Positions 1 to 5,114 of a stretch of 8,489 nt of DNA are shown here, piece by piece. The notes under the pieces are model-generated. The model saw only the letters and a list, made by a program, of their open reading frames with translations. It had not been told where the DNA came from and ran no database searches. A program made the translations under genes and the position numbers. The stretch is from Deltaproteobacteria bacterium (GTDB lineage: Bacteria; Desulfobacterota; BSN033; UBA1163): contig VGRU01000159.1 of the NCBI GenBank assembly GCA_016875255.1, positions 1 through 8,489 on the forward strand, written 5' to 3'. Position 1 is the stretch's first letter. Each line of letters opens with the position of its first letter.

Positions 1-1
1 G

Positions 2-73
2 AATAGAAGGCAGGAGACATCGTTTTCCGCTGGCAGTGATGCCGACGACTGCAAAACGACAAAACAGGCATAA
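2..73 (+). CDS. C-terminal end of an upstream reading frame, possibly the preceding integron cassette gene (partial, unidentified)
   Basis: Frame 2 is open from the window edge to a TAA at 71-73, giving 23 hydrophilic residues that end in KTTKQA. The TAA sits inside the R'' box (GCATAAC, 68-74) of the attC site, an arrangement common where a cassette gene ends at its recombination site. That placement is the only real argument that this frame is coding. The tail is too short to assign to a family. Frame 3 is also open here and runs on through the attC to 218, so the choice of frame is uncertain. Confidence 0.3.
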   Translation, partial: NRRQETSFSAGSDADDCKTTKQA

Positions 74-130
74 CCAGGCGCTGAAGCCGATCGCCCAAAA
101 AACGGGCTCCGGCTTAGCTCTATGTTATGT
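68..130 (+). other. Integron attC recombination site
   Basis: R'' GCATAAC (68-74) pairs with R' GTTATGT (124-130), with one G-T wobble. L'' (78-89, GCGCTGAAGCCG) pairs with L' (110-120, CGGCTTAGCTC), leaving G83 unpaired as the extrahelical base and one C79/T119 mismatch. An inner GCCC/GGGC stem (93-96/104-107) closes an A-rich loop. Box order, the 3-nt R''-L'' spacing and the 63-bp length match short attC sites such as that of aadA cassettes, whose arms I recall as very similar. Strand exchange would occur between G124 and T125, so the following cassette begins at 125. R' deviates from GTTRRRY at one position. No integrase gene is visible in the window. Confidence 0.8.
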
Positions 131-171
131 GCATAAAAACTCTATATTTCCGTCTTACCCAAAAACAACAC

Positions 172-202
172 TTTACAATGATACCAATAATGATACTATA
201 AT
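172..202 (+). promoter_or_regulatory. Putative promoter of the hicAB cassette with an 8-bp direct repeat
   Basis: TTTACA (172-177) and a perfect TATAAT (197-202) are separated by 19 bp, slightly longer than ideal. Two copies of AATGATAC lie at 177-184 and 189-196, 12 bp apart, between the two hexamers. HicB-type ribbon-helix-helix antitoxins repress their own promoters, so the repeats are candidate operators (inference). Transcription would start near 208, leaving almost no leader before the ATG at 206. Either translation is leaderless or the true start is a later ATG such as 224. Toxin-antitoxin cassettes usually carry their own promoter, which fits. Confidence 0.5.
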
Positions 203-205
203 TAT

Positions 206-465
206 ATGGCTGCAATAGATGACATGCTTGCACAAATGAGGCGAAATCCAAGAGATGTTTGATTCAGCGAATTGTGTAAGGTATGTGATCATTTTTTTGG
301 GGAGTCTCGGCAAGGTGGGGGCAATCATCGAATTTACAAAACCCCGTGGCAGGGTGACCCCCGAATAAATATTCAGAACCATAAAGGAAAGCCAAGGCAT
401 ACCAAGTGAAACAGGTGCTATTGGCTATTGAAAGATTGGAGGTAGGTTATGGCCCTGAAAAATGA
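206..465 (+). pseudogene. hicA: hicA, HicA-family mRNA interferase toxin, disrupted by a stop and a frameshift
   Basis: HicA toxins are small double-stranded-RNA-binding-fold ribonucleases that cleave translated mRNA; HicB neutralises them. Restored, this gene encodes about 86 residues. Conserved HicA features are FSELCKVCDHFFGE, the GGNHRIY segment with the expected catalytic His (residue 41), KTPWQGDPRINIQ, and the C-terminal KAKAYQVKQVLLAIERLE. Two lesions break it. Codon 19 is TGA (260-262) where relatives usually have Arg before FSELC, consistent with CGA to TGA. One base is also missing near 389-390 (GGA-AA-GCC), which moves the reading frame so that the C-terminus continues to the TGA at 463-465. 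The end overlaps the hicB ATG by 17 bp, the usual toxin-first layout. Ser-to-Asn before the His is a further deviation. It is probably inactive, but sequencing error has not been excluded. Confidence 0.82.
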
Positions 466-779
466 TCGATATACCTATCGGGTAACCTGGTCTGAAGACG
501 ATAACGAATATGTAGGGTTGTGTTCTGAATTTCCCAGCTTGAGTTGGCTCGCTAACAACTCCAGGAGTAGCCTTAAAAGGAATCCGTAAATTAGTTGAAG
601 ATGTCGTGAAGGATATGCACAACGAAGGTGAAGCTGTTCCTGAGCCAATCGCCTGCAGGCATTATAGTGGCAAATTCATCGTGCGAGTTCCTCCGCAAGT
701 TCATCGAAAACTTGCAATCCAAGCAGCGGAGTCTGGAGTCAGTCTGAATCGTCTTGCCAGTTCAAAGTTAAGTCAATAG
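449..779 (+). pseudogene. hicB: hicB, HicB-family antitoxin, disrupted by a one-base insertion
   Basis: This is the antitoxin partner of the overlapping hicA. The first frame from ATG 449 gives a HicB N-domain (YRVTWSEDDNEYVGLCSEF, then PSLSWLA), which has a degenerate RNase H-like fold. It then runs out of frame to a TAA at 593-595. Skipping one base near 557 restores TPGVALKGIRKLVEDVVKDM and HYSGKFIVRVPP, followed by QVHRKLAIQAAESGVSLNRL and a TAG at 777-779. The C-terminal part is a ribbon-helix-helix DNA-binding segment. The corrected product is about 109 residues, normal for this HicB group. A good ribosome site (GGAGG, 439-443) precedes the ATG. A truncated product would keep part of the toxin-binding domain but lose DNA binding. 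Because hicA is also broken, decay of the whole module is the simplest reading. Confidence 0.85.
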
Positions 780-967
780 AGCTCTACACATAATCGGGTA
801 AGGGACGGTAATTAGCCGTCCCCCCCCCACCACGCATCATGCGGGTCCCTGCCCGCCGGCAGGCAGGCGCAATGGGCGGTTCGCAGAAATCATGGGGCCT
901 TAGCCGGATCGTGAATCTGAATCCACAGTGTGCGAATAGAAACAAGCCCTCTCCCCTCTTAGTAGTA
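780..967. repeat. Repeat-rich gap between hicB and livF, with short GC palindromes
   Basis: No gene is visible. Three inverted repeats are present. GGGACGG/CCGTCCC (802-808/816-822) flanks TAATTAG and is followed by a C-run. CGCAT/ATGCG (833-843) has a one-base loop. A 20-bp near-palindrome centred on GCCGGC (848-867) has one mismatched pair. The first resembles palindromes I have seen near REP-associated transposases, but that is recollection only. None is followed by a T-run on either strand, so no classical terminator can be called for hicAB or for the convergent livF. No attC R''/R' pair was found here. Confidence 0.5.
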
Positions 968-1696
968 TTACCCCCCTAAGTAGAGGCGGCGGACGTCGGG
1001 GTTCTGGAGGAGGTCTTGGCCTTTTCCTTCAAACCGATTGTTTCCCATCTCCAGGACATAAGCGTAATCCGAATATCCCAGGACCATGGCCGCCTTCTGC
1101 TCCACGATGAGGCAGGGAAGACCTGAATTCTTAATCTCAACGATCTTCTCAAATACAGTCTTGACCCATTTGGGCGAAAGCCCGAGAGAGGGTTCGTCGA
1201 GAAGAAGGAGTTTGGGCTGGATCATCATCGCCCTTGCGAGGGAGAGCATCTGCTGTTCCCCTCCGCTCATATGAGCGGCTTTTCTCTTCTTTCGCTCCAT
1301 CAACCAGGGAAAGAGTTGATAGACCCGTTCAAAAGATTTCTCTTTCTCCTGCCGGTCCTTAATCGTCCAGGCACCCATATCGAGGTGCTCCTGGACGGTC
1401 ATATCAGGAAAGATGACCCTTCCCTGCGGATTGAAGGCCATACCCTTCTCAACGATCTGATAGGGAGGCGTATGGGTCACCTCCTCATTCATAAAGAGGA
1501 CTCTTCCGGAGGTGACTTTTAAGAGACCTGCGGCCGCCTTGAGGACCGTCGATTTTCCGGCTCCATTGGGTCCGATCAGGCCGACGATCTCACCTCTTGC
1601 CACCGAGAGGGAGATGCCGTGGAGGATCTCCATCTTTCCGTAACCGGAGACAAGACCCTCGATCAATAAAATTTTTTCTTCTTTTCTTTCCATCAT
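968..1696 (-). CDS. livF: LivF-type ATPase of a branched-chain amino acid-family ABC transporter
   Basis: This cytoplasmic nucleotide-binding subunit hydrolyses ATP to drive LivH/LivM. The 242-residue product has Walker A GPNGAGKST (42-50), the Q-loop region NPQGRVIF (Gln91), the ABC signature MSGGEQQ (143-149, Met replacing the usual Leu) and Walker B LLLLDEPS (163-170). VEQ near residue 198 stands where other ABC ATPases have the H-loop His, which is normal for LivF. The reading frame is open upstream to 1747, but I choose the ATG at 1696 because it overlaps the livG stop as ATGA and gives the usual LivF length. The ATG at 1693 is an equally possible start. It is the last gene of the transport operon and is translationally coupled to livG. 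Nothing in it indicates the substrate. Confidence 0.95.
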   Translation of the reverse strand: MMERKEEKILLIEGLVSGYGKMEILHGISLSVARGEIVGLIGPNGAGKSTVLKAAAGLLKVTSGRVLFMNEEVTHTPPYQIVEKGMAFNPQGRVIFPDMTVQEHLDMGAWTIKDRQEKEKSFERVYQLFPWLMERKKRKAAHMSGGEQQMLSLARAMMIQPKLLLLDEPSLGLSPKWVKTVFEKIVEIKNSGLPCLIVEQKAAMVLGYSDYAYVLEMGNNRFEGKGQDLLQNPDVRRLYLGG

Positions 1697-2403
1697 CTTC
1701 CGAAATAGTGTTCCAGTAATCTTTCGTCCTGCTGGACAAGGCTGCAACTTCCTTCTGCAATCTTCTGACCGTAGTTGAGCGCAATCGCATTCTGACAGTG
1801 GTTCATGATCACGCCCATATCATGTTCAACGATGATGAAGGTCTTTCCCCCTTCGTTGAGCCGGTGGATCAATGCCATCAGTTCATTCTGGAGCGTGGGG
1901 TTGATGCCGGCCGCAGGTTCATCAAGCAAGATGAGCTCGGCATCGAGCATCAGCACTTGAGCCAGCGAGAGGAGTTTCTGCTGGCCGAAGGAGAGGTCAG
2001 AGGCATAATCATCTTTCTTCTCCGCGAGCTTGACCAGATGGAGAAGTTCCAAGGCCCTCTCCATCACCTTTTTCTCCCTTCCCTTTCCCACGACGATGAG
2101 GTTCTCGAGAAGGGTCATCTTCGGGAAGATCCGGATGATCTGATAGGTCCGGCCAACCCCTCTCCGGGCAATCTCATAAGGCTTCTTGCCCGTGATCTCT
2201 TCCCCTTTAAAGAAGACATGCCCTGAATCGGGCTGAAGCACTCCGGTGATGAGGTTGAAGAGGGTCGTCTTGCCTGCTCCGTTGGGGCCGATCAGGCCGG
2301 TGATTGACCCTTGCTCAATATCAAAGGAACAATGATCCAGCGCGGCCACCTCACCGAATTTCTTCACCACATCATCGATTCTTAATAGAGGATCCTTTGT
2401 CAT
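1693..2403 (-). CDS. livG: LivG-type ATPase of a branched-chain amino acid-family ABC transporter
   Basis: This is the second cytoplasmic ATPase, expected to pair with LivF under the LivH/LivM membrane dimer. Its 236 residues carry Walker A GPNGAGKTT (39-47), Q-loop RTYQIIRIF (Gln88), signature LSFGQQK (137-143), Walker B LILLDEP (157-163) and the H-loop IIVEHDM (His194). The C-terminus (IAEGSCSLVQQDERLLEHYFG) is the LivG-type ending. It is about 20 residues shorter than E. coli LivG, mostly after the ENL segment near residue 100; compact versions are common. The ATG at 2403 follows livM by 38 bp. That spacer holds a 14-bp tandem repeat and only a weak ribosome site (GGCGGT). The stop overlaps the livF start. 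Confidence 0.95.
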   Translation of the reverse strand: MTKDPLLRIDDVVKKFGEVAALDHCSFDIEQGSITGLIGPNGAGKTTLFNLITGVLQPDSGHVFFKGEEITGKKPYEIARRGVGRTYQIIRIFPKMTLLENLIVVGKGREKKVMERALELLHLVKLAEKKDDYASDLSFGQQKLLSLAQVLMLDAELILLDEPAAGINPTLQNELMALIHRLNEGGKTFIIVEHDMGVIMNHCQNAIALNYGQKIAEGSCSLVQQDERLLEHYFGR

Positions 2404-2441: not shown

Positions 2442-3389
2442 CTATATCTTCCTGATCCTCGGAAGGATGCCTTTCTCCTTCATCCAGCCTAAAAGACCCT
2501 GAGGAAAAAATAGGATCAATGCGATGAGAATCGCTCCAAAGATCGCCATATAGAGAATGGTCAATTCAGCCCAGAGGATCTCATGGATGAAGGTAAAGAG
2601 TGTTGCCCCGATGGCCGGACCAAAAACCGTTCCCACACCTCCGAAGAGGGTCATCACAATGGGAGTGAGGGTGAGGTGGATGGTGAAGCCAAAGGACGGA
2701 TCAATATAGTTCTGATAGGTAAAATGGATCGCCCCTGCCAGCCCCGTGAGAAAGGCGCTGAAGGCAAAGGCGATGATCTTGTCCCGTGTGGTATGGATAC
2801 CCAGGGTCTCTGCGGCCTGTTCATCCTCTCGGATGGCCATGAGCCGGAGACCAAATTTGGAGGAGGTGATCTTATAACAGATGATGACCGTCATGAATGC
2901 CAAGAATAGAATCGACCAGTAGAGTGCGGAGAGGCTGATGCCTGCGACAAAAGGAACGCCTTTGCCTCCATGCGTGATGGGTTCGAGATATTCCGTGCCG
3001 ATGAGTTCCCTTGTCCCTTCGGTCAGGGCCACCATGGAGATGGCAAAATAGACCCCTTTGATCCTGAGGAGGATATACCCCACGCCAATGGAGACGATGC
3101 CGACAAAGAGGGCTCCGATGGGCCAGGCGAAAAGCCAGAAGAATTTATGGTCGGCGATGAGGAGACTGGACACATATCCGCTGACACCGATGAACCAGGC
3201 GAGACCCAAATTGGTATAACCTGTCAATCCCGAAAAAAGGTTCCATCCTGAGGCGTAGACCGTGAAGATGAGGATGAGAACCAGAAGGGTCATCCAGTAG
3301 TCCGTGGCAAAGAAAGGGATCGAGATGAGAAAGGCCATGAGAATGGCAATCCCTAACAAGACTCGATTTCTTCCTAATAAAGGACTCAT
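2442..3389 (-). CDS. livM: LivM-type permease of a branched-chain amino acid-family ABC transporter
   Basis: This inner-membrane permease forms the transport channel with LivH. The 315-residue product is strongly hydrophobic, with roughly eight to ten membrane segments. LivM-type features are SGWNLFSGLTGYTNLG (47-62), the cytoplasmic ATPase-coupling loop FGLRLMAIREDEQAAETLGI (179-198), and GGVGTVFGPAIGA (250-262) with the FFPQGLLG ending. The frame opens at a TTG at 3407, but the first ATG (3389) starts just before the first membrane segment, with a modest AAAGAAG purine tract upstream, so I prefer it. Upstream lies a repeat-filled gap of about 540 bp, an unusually long break inside a liv operon. 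A separate promoter for livMGF cannot be excluded. Confidence 0.93.
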   Translation of the reverse strand: MSPLLGRNRVLLGIAILMAFLISIPFFATDYWMTLLVLILIFTVYASGWNLFSGLTGYTNLGLAWFIGVSGYVSSLLIADHKFFWLFAWPIGALFVGIVSIGVGYILLRIKGVYFAISMVALTEGTRELIGTEYLEPITHGGKGVPFVAGISLSALYWSILFLAFMTVIICYKITSSKFGLRLMAIREDEQAAETLGIHTTRDKIIAFAFSAFLTGLAGAIHFTYQNYIDPSFGFTIHLTLTPIVMTLFGGVGTVFGPAIGATLFTFIHEILWAELTILYMAIFGAILIALILFFPQGLLGWMKEKGILPRIRKI

Positions 3390-3437
3390 AACGGATACTT
3401 CTTTCAAATAAAATGGTCTTTCGGTTAAGGTAACGAA

Positions 3438-3902
3438 GCCCGTTTGGTTCAGGGGTAAGGGTTACGTGACAACGTTCAAGACATCGTTTACTGATTTTAC
3501 GTTCAGGACATCGTTTACTATTACCCCAATTGAGTCAAAAGTTTTATAAAATCCCCTCTAACTCCCCTTTGCCAAAGGGGAGAACCCATGATCATCCCCC
3601 TTTGGAAAAGGGGGAATGAGGAGGATTTTAAAATGTGACCCAAACGCTCGATCGTGGCCTAAGCATCAATGAAACTATTCAATAAAGGATTTTTTTTCGC
3701 TCAATTGGGGTATTATTCTTTTGTCAACAAGGCACTATTCAGATCAAAGAATATAAATATCAACATCAACTGTGTGACTGATGATACTGGTCACGGTATT
3801 AATATATAGACTCAAAGCCCTAAGTTAACGATGTCCTGAACGTTATCAGTTACGGTTTATATCATTTCAAGACGAACCACATAACCTTTTGACGAAACGG
3901 GC
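3438..3902. mobile_element. Mosaic of nested inverted repeats between livH and livM, probably non-autonomous element remnants
   Basis: The livH-livM gap contains no credible gene. GCCCGTTT (3438-3445) and AAACGGGC (3895-3902) form possible outer ends. Inside them, a 21-bp unit beginning ACGTTCA occurs twice in direct orientation (3472-3492, 3499-3519; one mismatch) and once inverted (3824-3843; 19 of 20 bases). Further in, TACCCCAATTGAG (3522-3534) is matched exactly in inverse by 3700-3712, and a C/G-rich double hairpin sits at 3546-3634. The TGTCCTGAAC core recalls ends of IS481-family insertion sequences (recollection). No transposase remains, so I read this as stacked MITE-like insertions. 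Target-site duplications were not identified. Confidence 0.6.
3546..3634. repeat. C/G-rich double-hairpin intergenic repeat
   Basis: CTCCCCTTTG (3562-3571) faces CAAAGGGGAG (3573-3582). CCCCCTTT (3596-3603) faces AAAAGGGGG (3606-3614). Outer arms TAAAATCCCCTC and GAGGAGGATTTTA bracket both. This pattern resembles a dispersed repeat family of C-runs and G-runs around AAATCCCC that I have seen in deltaproteobacterial intergenic regions (recollection). It sits inside the larger TACCCCAATTGAG inverted repeat. Confidence 0.7.
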
Positions 3903-4785: not shown

Positions 4786-4811
4786 AGCAAAGTTCTACCG
4801 GAATAATGGAA

Positions 4812-5106
4812 TGCTGGAATGATGGAATATTGGGTAAATATCAAAAATATCATTATTCGTTGCAGTTTAGCGCTTTGAAGCTGGTCAATGACTTTTGTGC
4901 GGGAAAATAGGGGCATCAGGCGACCAGGATATCAGGGTGCAGAATACCAGGGTACCAGGAATTCAGATAAAGAATAACAGTTTTAGGTTTGACCTGATAT
5001 CCCAATATCCTGATGTCCACTTCCTGATTACCTGATCGTCTGATAACCGCTTCAAAGGGCTAAAGTATTACCATTATTCCAATACTCCAATATTCCATCA
5101 TTCCAT
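4812..5106. repeat. Nested imperfect palindrome of about 295 bp between the binding-protein gene and livH
   Basis: At least four arm pairs are nested in order. GGAATGATGGAATATTGG (4816-4833) is exactly complementary to 5087-5104. TTTAGCGCTTTGAAGC (4866-4881) pairs with 5049-5064 with one mismatch. TCAGGCGACCAGG (4916-4928) pairs with 5031-5043 with two mismatches. GGATATCAGG (4927-4936) pairs exactly with 4993-5002. A related GGAATAATGG/CCATTATTCC pair lies at 4800-4809/5071-5080, outside the strict nesting. The element almost fills the 329-bp gap and has no coding potential. In RNA it would form one long hairpin. Confidence 0.85.
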
Positions 5107-5114
5107 GTCTTCGT

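Follow-up and report, generated by a model that had tools for sequence, protein, structure and literature searches.

The left 950 bases of the window, by which we mean the whole analysed stretch of 8489 bases, are very probably what decay has left of the outer end of a chromosomal integron array, probably that of a deltaproteobacterium. In this reading, an attC site is followed by a hicAB gene cassette, an intron had entered the attC of that cassette, and a deletion brought the remains up to livF (Table 1).

Table 1 Features of the left part of the window
Feature	Position	Strand	Remarks
Possible tail of the previous cassette's gene	2..73	+	Open frame from the window edge, 23 codons; TAA stop inside R''
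attC of the previous cassette	68..130	+	Fold, scanner and covariance model; loop family like that of relatives' attCs near integrase genes or fragments
attC, R'' GCATAAC	68..74		
attC, spacer	75..79		
attC, L''	80..89		Extrahelical G83
attC, terminal structure	90..109		
attC, L'	110..118		
attC, spacer	119..123		
attC, R' GTTATGT	124..130		
hicAB gene cassette, from crossover point 124/125 to its own interrupted R''	125..792	+	TATGTG at 126-131 complements CACATA at 787-792; intact parallel in L140
Conserved hicAB promoter/operator stretch	163..205	+	TTTACA at 172, TACTAT ending at 199; shared block; generic scan at chance level
hicA pseudogene (toxin)	206..462	+	In-frame stop near 260, frame change near 390
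hicB pseudogene (antitoxin)	449..779	+	Frame change near 555; HicB domain within 606-779
Surviving R'' piece of the hicAB cassette's own attC, CACATA	787..792	+	Complement of the cassette start
3' stump of a probable group IIC-attC intron	793..949 (to about 949)	-	Alignments to relatives' introns; maturase end
Stump, last 19 maturase codons and stop	949..890		Followed by domain V (split by the insert), domain VI and the 3' end ..ACCCGAT at 793
20-nt palindrome inserted in intron domain V	848..867	.	Alignments to L051 and L057
GGG at the intron/livF junction	947..949		Either side of the junction possible
livF-like ABC ATPase gene, array end against it	968..1747	-	Domain search; native 3' flank to about 947

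The left edge of the window lies 67 bases before the attC. From 968 rightwards, a domain search identified two ABC ATPases, two BPD_transp_2 permeases and one periplasmic binding protein, which we take to be livF, livG, livM and livH with their binding protein from the gene order and the domains. The stretch from 968 rightwards also holds an AMP-binding enzyme, called acyl-CoA ligase in this analysis, and the start of a possible cyclase whose PF04199 score is below the cut-off. The reading frames of the liv genes and of the AMP-binding enzyme are uninterrupted from end to end; therefore, sequencing error is unlikely to be the source of the lesions in hicAB and the intron. For the AMP-binding enzyme, the three most similar copies (84-88% identity) belong to the MAGs G001 (uncultured proteobacterium, locus L001), G002 (Deltaproteobacteria bacterium, L002) and G003 (uncultured bacterium, L003), of which L001 has the same liv operon as the window and is the synteny partner. 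By eye, we also observed repeats between the liv genes (3420-3900 and 4800-5110 of the window), among them a short inverted ctcccctttg..aaaggggag element as well as repeated strings resembling ggaatgatggaatattgg.

The site at 68-130 is a genuine attC. Pairing of its R'' and R' cores closes an imperfect hairpin that has L'' and L' boxes, unpaired spacers and an extrahelical base, and each core departs once from the consensus RYYYAAC / GTTRRRY. The bottom strand of 66-133 folds at -15.2 kcal/mol (z -2.85) with none of 200 shuffles as good, while for the top strand z is only -1.94 and 10 of 200 shuffles do equally well. A rule-based attC scanner gave a score of 12.25 for 68-130, the runner-up in the window reaching 8.7. 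Its background at that level was four matches at three places in 50 loci (1.57 Mb of strand); when the entire window was dinucleotide-shuffled 200 times, eight matches arose. The spacer bound of the scanner had excluded 68-130 and was relaxed after the window had been viewed, with the background counted under the relaxed rule; therefore, the covariance model is the cleaner test. Trained on six attCs from four related genomes with the window excluded, it matched 68-130 with 46.3 bits (E 1.2e-11), which was its sole match in the window, and no second match appeared in the window and 50 loci together (793,982 bases). The earlier note had read an attC here, with its elements in order, and had named a bottom-strand fold and a covariance model as ways to check it; both, the latter with our own six-site model, agree with that reading. 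In addition, the loop GATCGCC..AAA..GGCTCC is common to the window and attCs of G002 and G012. No DNA match to window 1-76 was found among 297 genomes of the phylum.

It is extremely improbable that 68-130 is a chance palindrome, or a terminator unrelated to integrons, beside an ordinary chromosomal hicAB. A terminator scan does flag part of it (104-120), but one such match is what chance would give (1.0 expected), and most of the fetched hicAB relatives do not lie between attCs according to the model. However, a match of E 1e-11 to an attC model built without the window already contradicts such a reading, as do the loop sequence shared with attCs near integrases and the cassette end and intron stump that lie beyond hicAB.

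Integrons are widespread in the order of G001. The integron integrase TIGR02249 scored above its curated cut-off in nine of the 17 genomes, including G001, G002 and G003, the holders of the closest ligases, and in none of 14 named controls; weaker matches, of the kind expected from other tyrosine recombinases, occurred in every one of the 17 genomes and 14 controls. The attC model, with at most 150 candidates scored per genome, matched in 15 of the 17 genomes (up to 37 matches in one, G002) and was silent in G001 and G004, of which G001 nonetheless has the integrase. Under the same candidate limit, it matched in none of ten other genomes, an empty answer that alone shows nothing. In 39 other loci, the model gave 34 matches at E up to 1, namely 29 around integrase matches (L072-L086, six being training sites), three in L093, one in L091 and a weak one in L071. 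The model is narrow, since it found none of the attCs expected in L056-L058. These counts, together with the published deltaproteobacterial attC model (PMC8352920), contradict the earlier remark that the lineage is not noted for integrons. The proposal of a CALIN-type locus is not clearly borne out, either: besides its single complete attC, the window has a remnant of another, and PMC9892861 uses a minimum of two attCs with no integrase nearby. None of the proteins identified across the 8489 bases is an integrase, and the window thus holds no complete integron.

Next to the attC, hicA and hicB lie together as pseudogenes of a HicAB type II toxin-antitoxin module, with HicA recognised by alignment only. 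Compared with the intact HicA of L140, the hicA of the window shows 64% and 84% identity in two frames, and the C-terminus of HicB belongs to Pfam PF05534 (E 5e-16). The intact HicA of L140 itself matched neither Pfam nor NCBIfam. The stop and frame change in hicA and the frame change in hicB bear out the description of the module as decayed. As for the separate promoter claimed for it, the stretch lies inside a block shared with relatives, in which the match begins at 161-171 in 13 of the 20 fetched hicAB loci, but the generic promoter scan adds no evidence because its one site (172-199) compares with an average of 1.4 in shuffles.

Within an array, the first base of a cassette follows the G of the preceding R' and its last part is its own attC, whose R'' must therefore complement the cassette start. 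In nine arrays, the R' of one attC is the complement of the next R'' (7/7 bases) in 20 of 34 neighbour pairs, and the two cores within one attC are complementary in 3 of 43. These arrays are nine loci with at least three model matches; the count leaves aside the partial matches L078 5986 and L138 8575, L093 with its overlap with L140, and all loci that have just one or two matches. The locus L107 does not enter into the analysis. The cassette of the window begins with TTATGTG (125-131), and behind the hicB stop stands CACATA, in which all six surviving bases agree with the complement of 126-131; therefore, the far end of the cassette is present, with the rest of the hicAB attC lost. Since the intron end lies inside this attC remnant with its six complementary R'' bases, 125-792 is one cassette minus most of its attC. 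An intact counterpart is found in L140 of G143, another genome of the phylum, where attC, promoter, hicA, hicB and the R'' CACACAAC, matching the start GTTGTGTG, follow one another. This locus contains eight attC matches in 6.8 kb, with hicAB between two attCs.

The hicAB module travels by means other than cassettes too. A DNA search with 60-960 matched some part of the query in at least 39 of 297 phylum genomes at E 0.001 or better, at least 31 of these through hicAB and at least 8 only through the attC, intron or palindrome stretch; with two candidates scored per genome, these counts are lower bounds. Among the 20 fetched hicAB loci (flank up to 1.5 kb), attCs stand on both sides only in L093; L091 has one weak attC (19.5 bits) and L097 a partial match of 12.7 bits. 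The closest hicAB copy, in G009 (L087), is 90% identical and has no good attC in 16 kb (best 14.7 bits). We observed that this copy is framed by the inverted pair TTCTAACGGGGTTTAC / GTTTACCCCGTTAGAA and palindromic repeats, which are not attCs. Three other copies, L088, L089 and L090, resemble the window (82-85%) up to base 792 and then read ACATA(C/G)CAA, which is one base off an R'' core plus spacer. The attC model did not accept these remnants, which are perhaps decayed attCs.

Directly behind hicB, on the strand opposite to the cassette, lies the 3' stump of an intron, which marks the other end of the cassette and was absent from the earlier note. Its DNA matches copies in G002 (78%) and G006 (81%). 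The G002 copy stands behind codons for GVPQGGPL, which reads as a reverse-transcriptase motif. The G014 copy closes a frame with a group II maturase domain (PF08388) that reads ..QQGLVSIRTLWI, and the minus strand of the window at 949-890 reads GLVSIRTLWIQIHDPAKAP and then a stop, with GLVSIRTLWI common to both. Apart from the 20-nt insert, an alignment of domains V-VI can be made to the end of an intron that lies 3' of arr-2, beside intI1, in a Klebsiella plasmid (L057) and whose reverse transcriptase passes TIGR04416. A group IIC-attC intron has domains I-VI and a class C maturase; of these, domains V-VI and 19 maturase codons are left, and the assignment is a probable one, made from alignments with L051 and L057 and from the end of the L136 maturase. 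We also considered 793-949 as an insertion sequence or a terminator repeat, but the maturase frame of L136 and the arr-2 parallel spoke for an intron.

The intron 3' end ..ACCCGAT is found in the window, L056, L057 and L058, followed by TATG, TATG, TATG and TAGG, respectively. It has been reported that IIC-attC introns enter the bottom strands of attCs at R'', with the consensus TTGT/T and opposite to the cassettes (PMC7923331). In the window, the 3' junction between 793 and 792 lies in R'', opposite to the cassette, so that the target place, orientation and letters fit; TTGT itself is not visible because only the 3' exon side survives. Rfam assigns RF00029 to the intron of a Glaciecola array (L056) and gave no match for the window stump even at E 5. 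Its domain V-VI match was obtained only in L056, not in L051, L136 or L057, the last matching only D1-D4. Over the whole window, Rfam gave no match at gathering scores, and over 1-1000 at E 5 it gave only a microRNA family far below the gathering score. A plasmid search with window 1-900 returned, among the best 20 of 124, distant hicAB matches and a 60-base Klebsiella match that is noise-like at E 0.8 and corresponds to the intron end.

Of five distinct intron stumps examined in the order, four are located between attCs on the opposite strand (L052 in G002, L108 in G006, L109 in G014 and L110 in G008), although one of the two attCs flanking L110 is weak (15.7 bits). At the fifth, L051 in G002, the covariance model found no attC. 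As further exceptions, the 3' exons of L052 and L110 begin with TCG and have no R'' core, and the last bases of the L108 intron are gone. These two exons, the report that IIC-attC introns also use terminators (PMC7923331) and the fetched hicAB homologues, most of them outside attC pairs, would all be compatible with a lone attC beside a hicAB that was never a cassette, the intron behind hicB having targeted a terminator. We nevertheless consider this very unlikely: the exon at the stump, TATGTG, repeats cassette bases 126-131 at the target position, the resemblance of L088-L090 to the window extends up to base 792, and the intact hicAB between two attCs in L140 has a like layout from the stop to R''. 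The fossil gene cassette proposed in the earlier note is thus borne out by the covariance match, the R'' remnant at the far end, the intron in R'', the integrases and arrays of relatives, and the intact cassette elsewhere.

At the other end of the stump, similarity of the livF flank to G009 extends as far as 947 and the intron matches in G006 and G014 start at 949; therefore, the two meet within the GGG. This junction was probably made by a deletion. In G012, an attC-like remnant is located a few bases behind livF and, by alignment, resembles an attC of G015 with the 20-nt palindrome inserted. The covariance model is silent on this remnant, and folding leaves the R boxes of the remnant unpaired, so that its identification is one by alignment. 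It is unlikely that the array was instead part of a mobile element that ended by chance beside livF, which would make the junction an insertion edge. Such an origin would accord with a window that has neither integrase nor left context, and with L001, which at livF shows no match to the left 950 bases and no attC; against it stand the aligned attC-like remnant beside livF in G012 and the attCs in 15 of the 17 genomes of the order.

The 20-nt palindrome in the stump is of the type CCTGCCTG..GGCAGGCAGG, which we also observed in L141 (G012) at about 2926-3025. A strict pattern of this palindrome, which the window copy does not fit, found five copies in 25 regions of the order, together 308,599 bases; the 735,364 bases of L004-L050 contained none. 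Counted by eye, short matches to the palindrome stretch occur in seven of the 17 genomes of the order.

From these remains, we infer the following history of the array end. An integron integrase would have recombined the folded bottom strand of attC sites, cutting between G124 and T125, and hicAB, with its own promoter, the HicA toxin and the HicB antitoxin, would have been an array cassette that began at 125 and was closed by an attC of its own. A group IIC-attC retro-intron may then have reverse-spliced into the bottom strand of the hicAB attC, within the R'' core and opposite to the cassette. A later deletion would have removed the 5' part of the intron, the remaining attC and whatever came next, leaving what remained of the intron next to the livF 3' flank. 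The decay of hicA, hicB and intron domain V would have proceeded through small changes and one small insert. As a result, excision of the cassette by itself would presumably have become impossible, and the two toxin-antitoxin proteins would be broken.

Several known systems resemble parts of this locus. The CALIN of Halorhodospira halochloris, as described in PMC7923331, likewise has an attC cluster without an integrase, type II toxin-antitoxin cassettes and 5'-truncated group II introns (H.ha.F1/F2), one of which lies in a cassette with a frameshifted HicA gene; a truncated group II intron in a toxin-antitoxin cassette with a frameshifted hicA is therefore already in print. In contrast to the window, where the stump aligns to an attC-targeting intron and sits in R'' opposite to the cassette, the two introns of H. 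halochloris are reported there as group IIB (class E). In the Klebsiella plasmid (L057) and in the Glaciecola plasmid (L056, behind a GFA gene), the intron is likewise opposite to the gene, with alike domains V-VI and ..ACCCGAT before TATG, but both keep D1-D4 matches and L057 a full reverse transcriptase, whereas about 157 bases are left in the window. We read the L057 intron as class IIC-attC from its position and orientation, not from a classifier. A hicA-hicB pair within an integron array is also known from G143 (L140/L093, where in L140 it is intact and not broken as in the window) and is described for Treponema denticola (PMC4909258). Chromosomal attCs of deltaproteobacteria are described as recognisable by a taxon-specific covariance model (PMC8352920), as is the attC of the window by our own model, built from six sites.

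All parts of the locus are thus known in kind and no new type of element is involved; what is unusual is how legibly both ends can be read. One wider role that can be imagined is quite unlikely: IIC-attC introns would act as array breakers in the order, where an occupied attC blocks excision, deletions run into the flank and arrays become fixed and worn at that place, and the 20-nt palindrome, settling in hairpins, may silence attCs and ribozymes. The hosts of the palindrome under the silencing idea would be intron domain V in the window and the attC-like stem beside livF in G012.

The locus shows how the end of an array dies, with both boundaries of a dead cassette readable, one as an attC and one as the stump of an attC-targeting intron. 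The impression of an odd lone attC is corrected by the integron-rich order around it. With integrons so common in the order of the closest relative, one should expect to meet such fossils there, and they can be counted.
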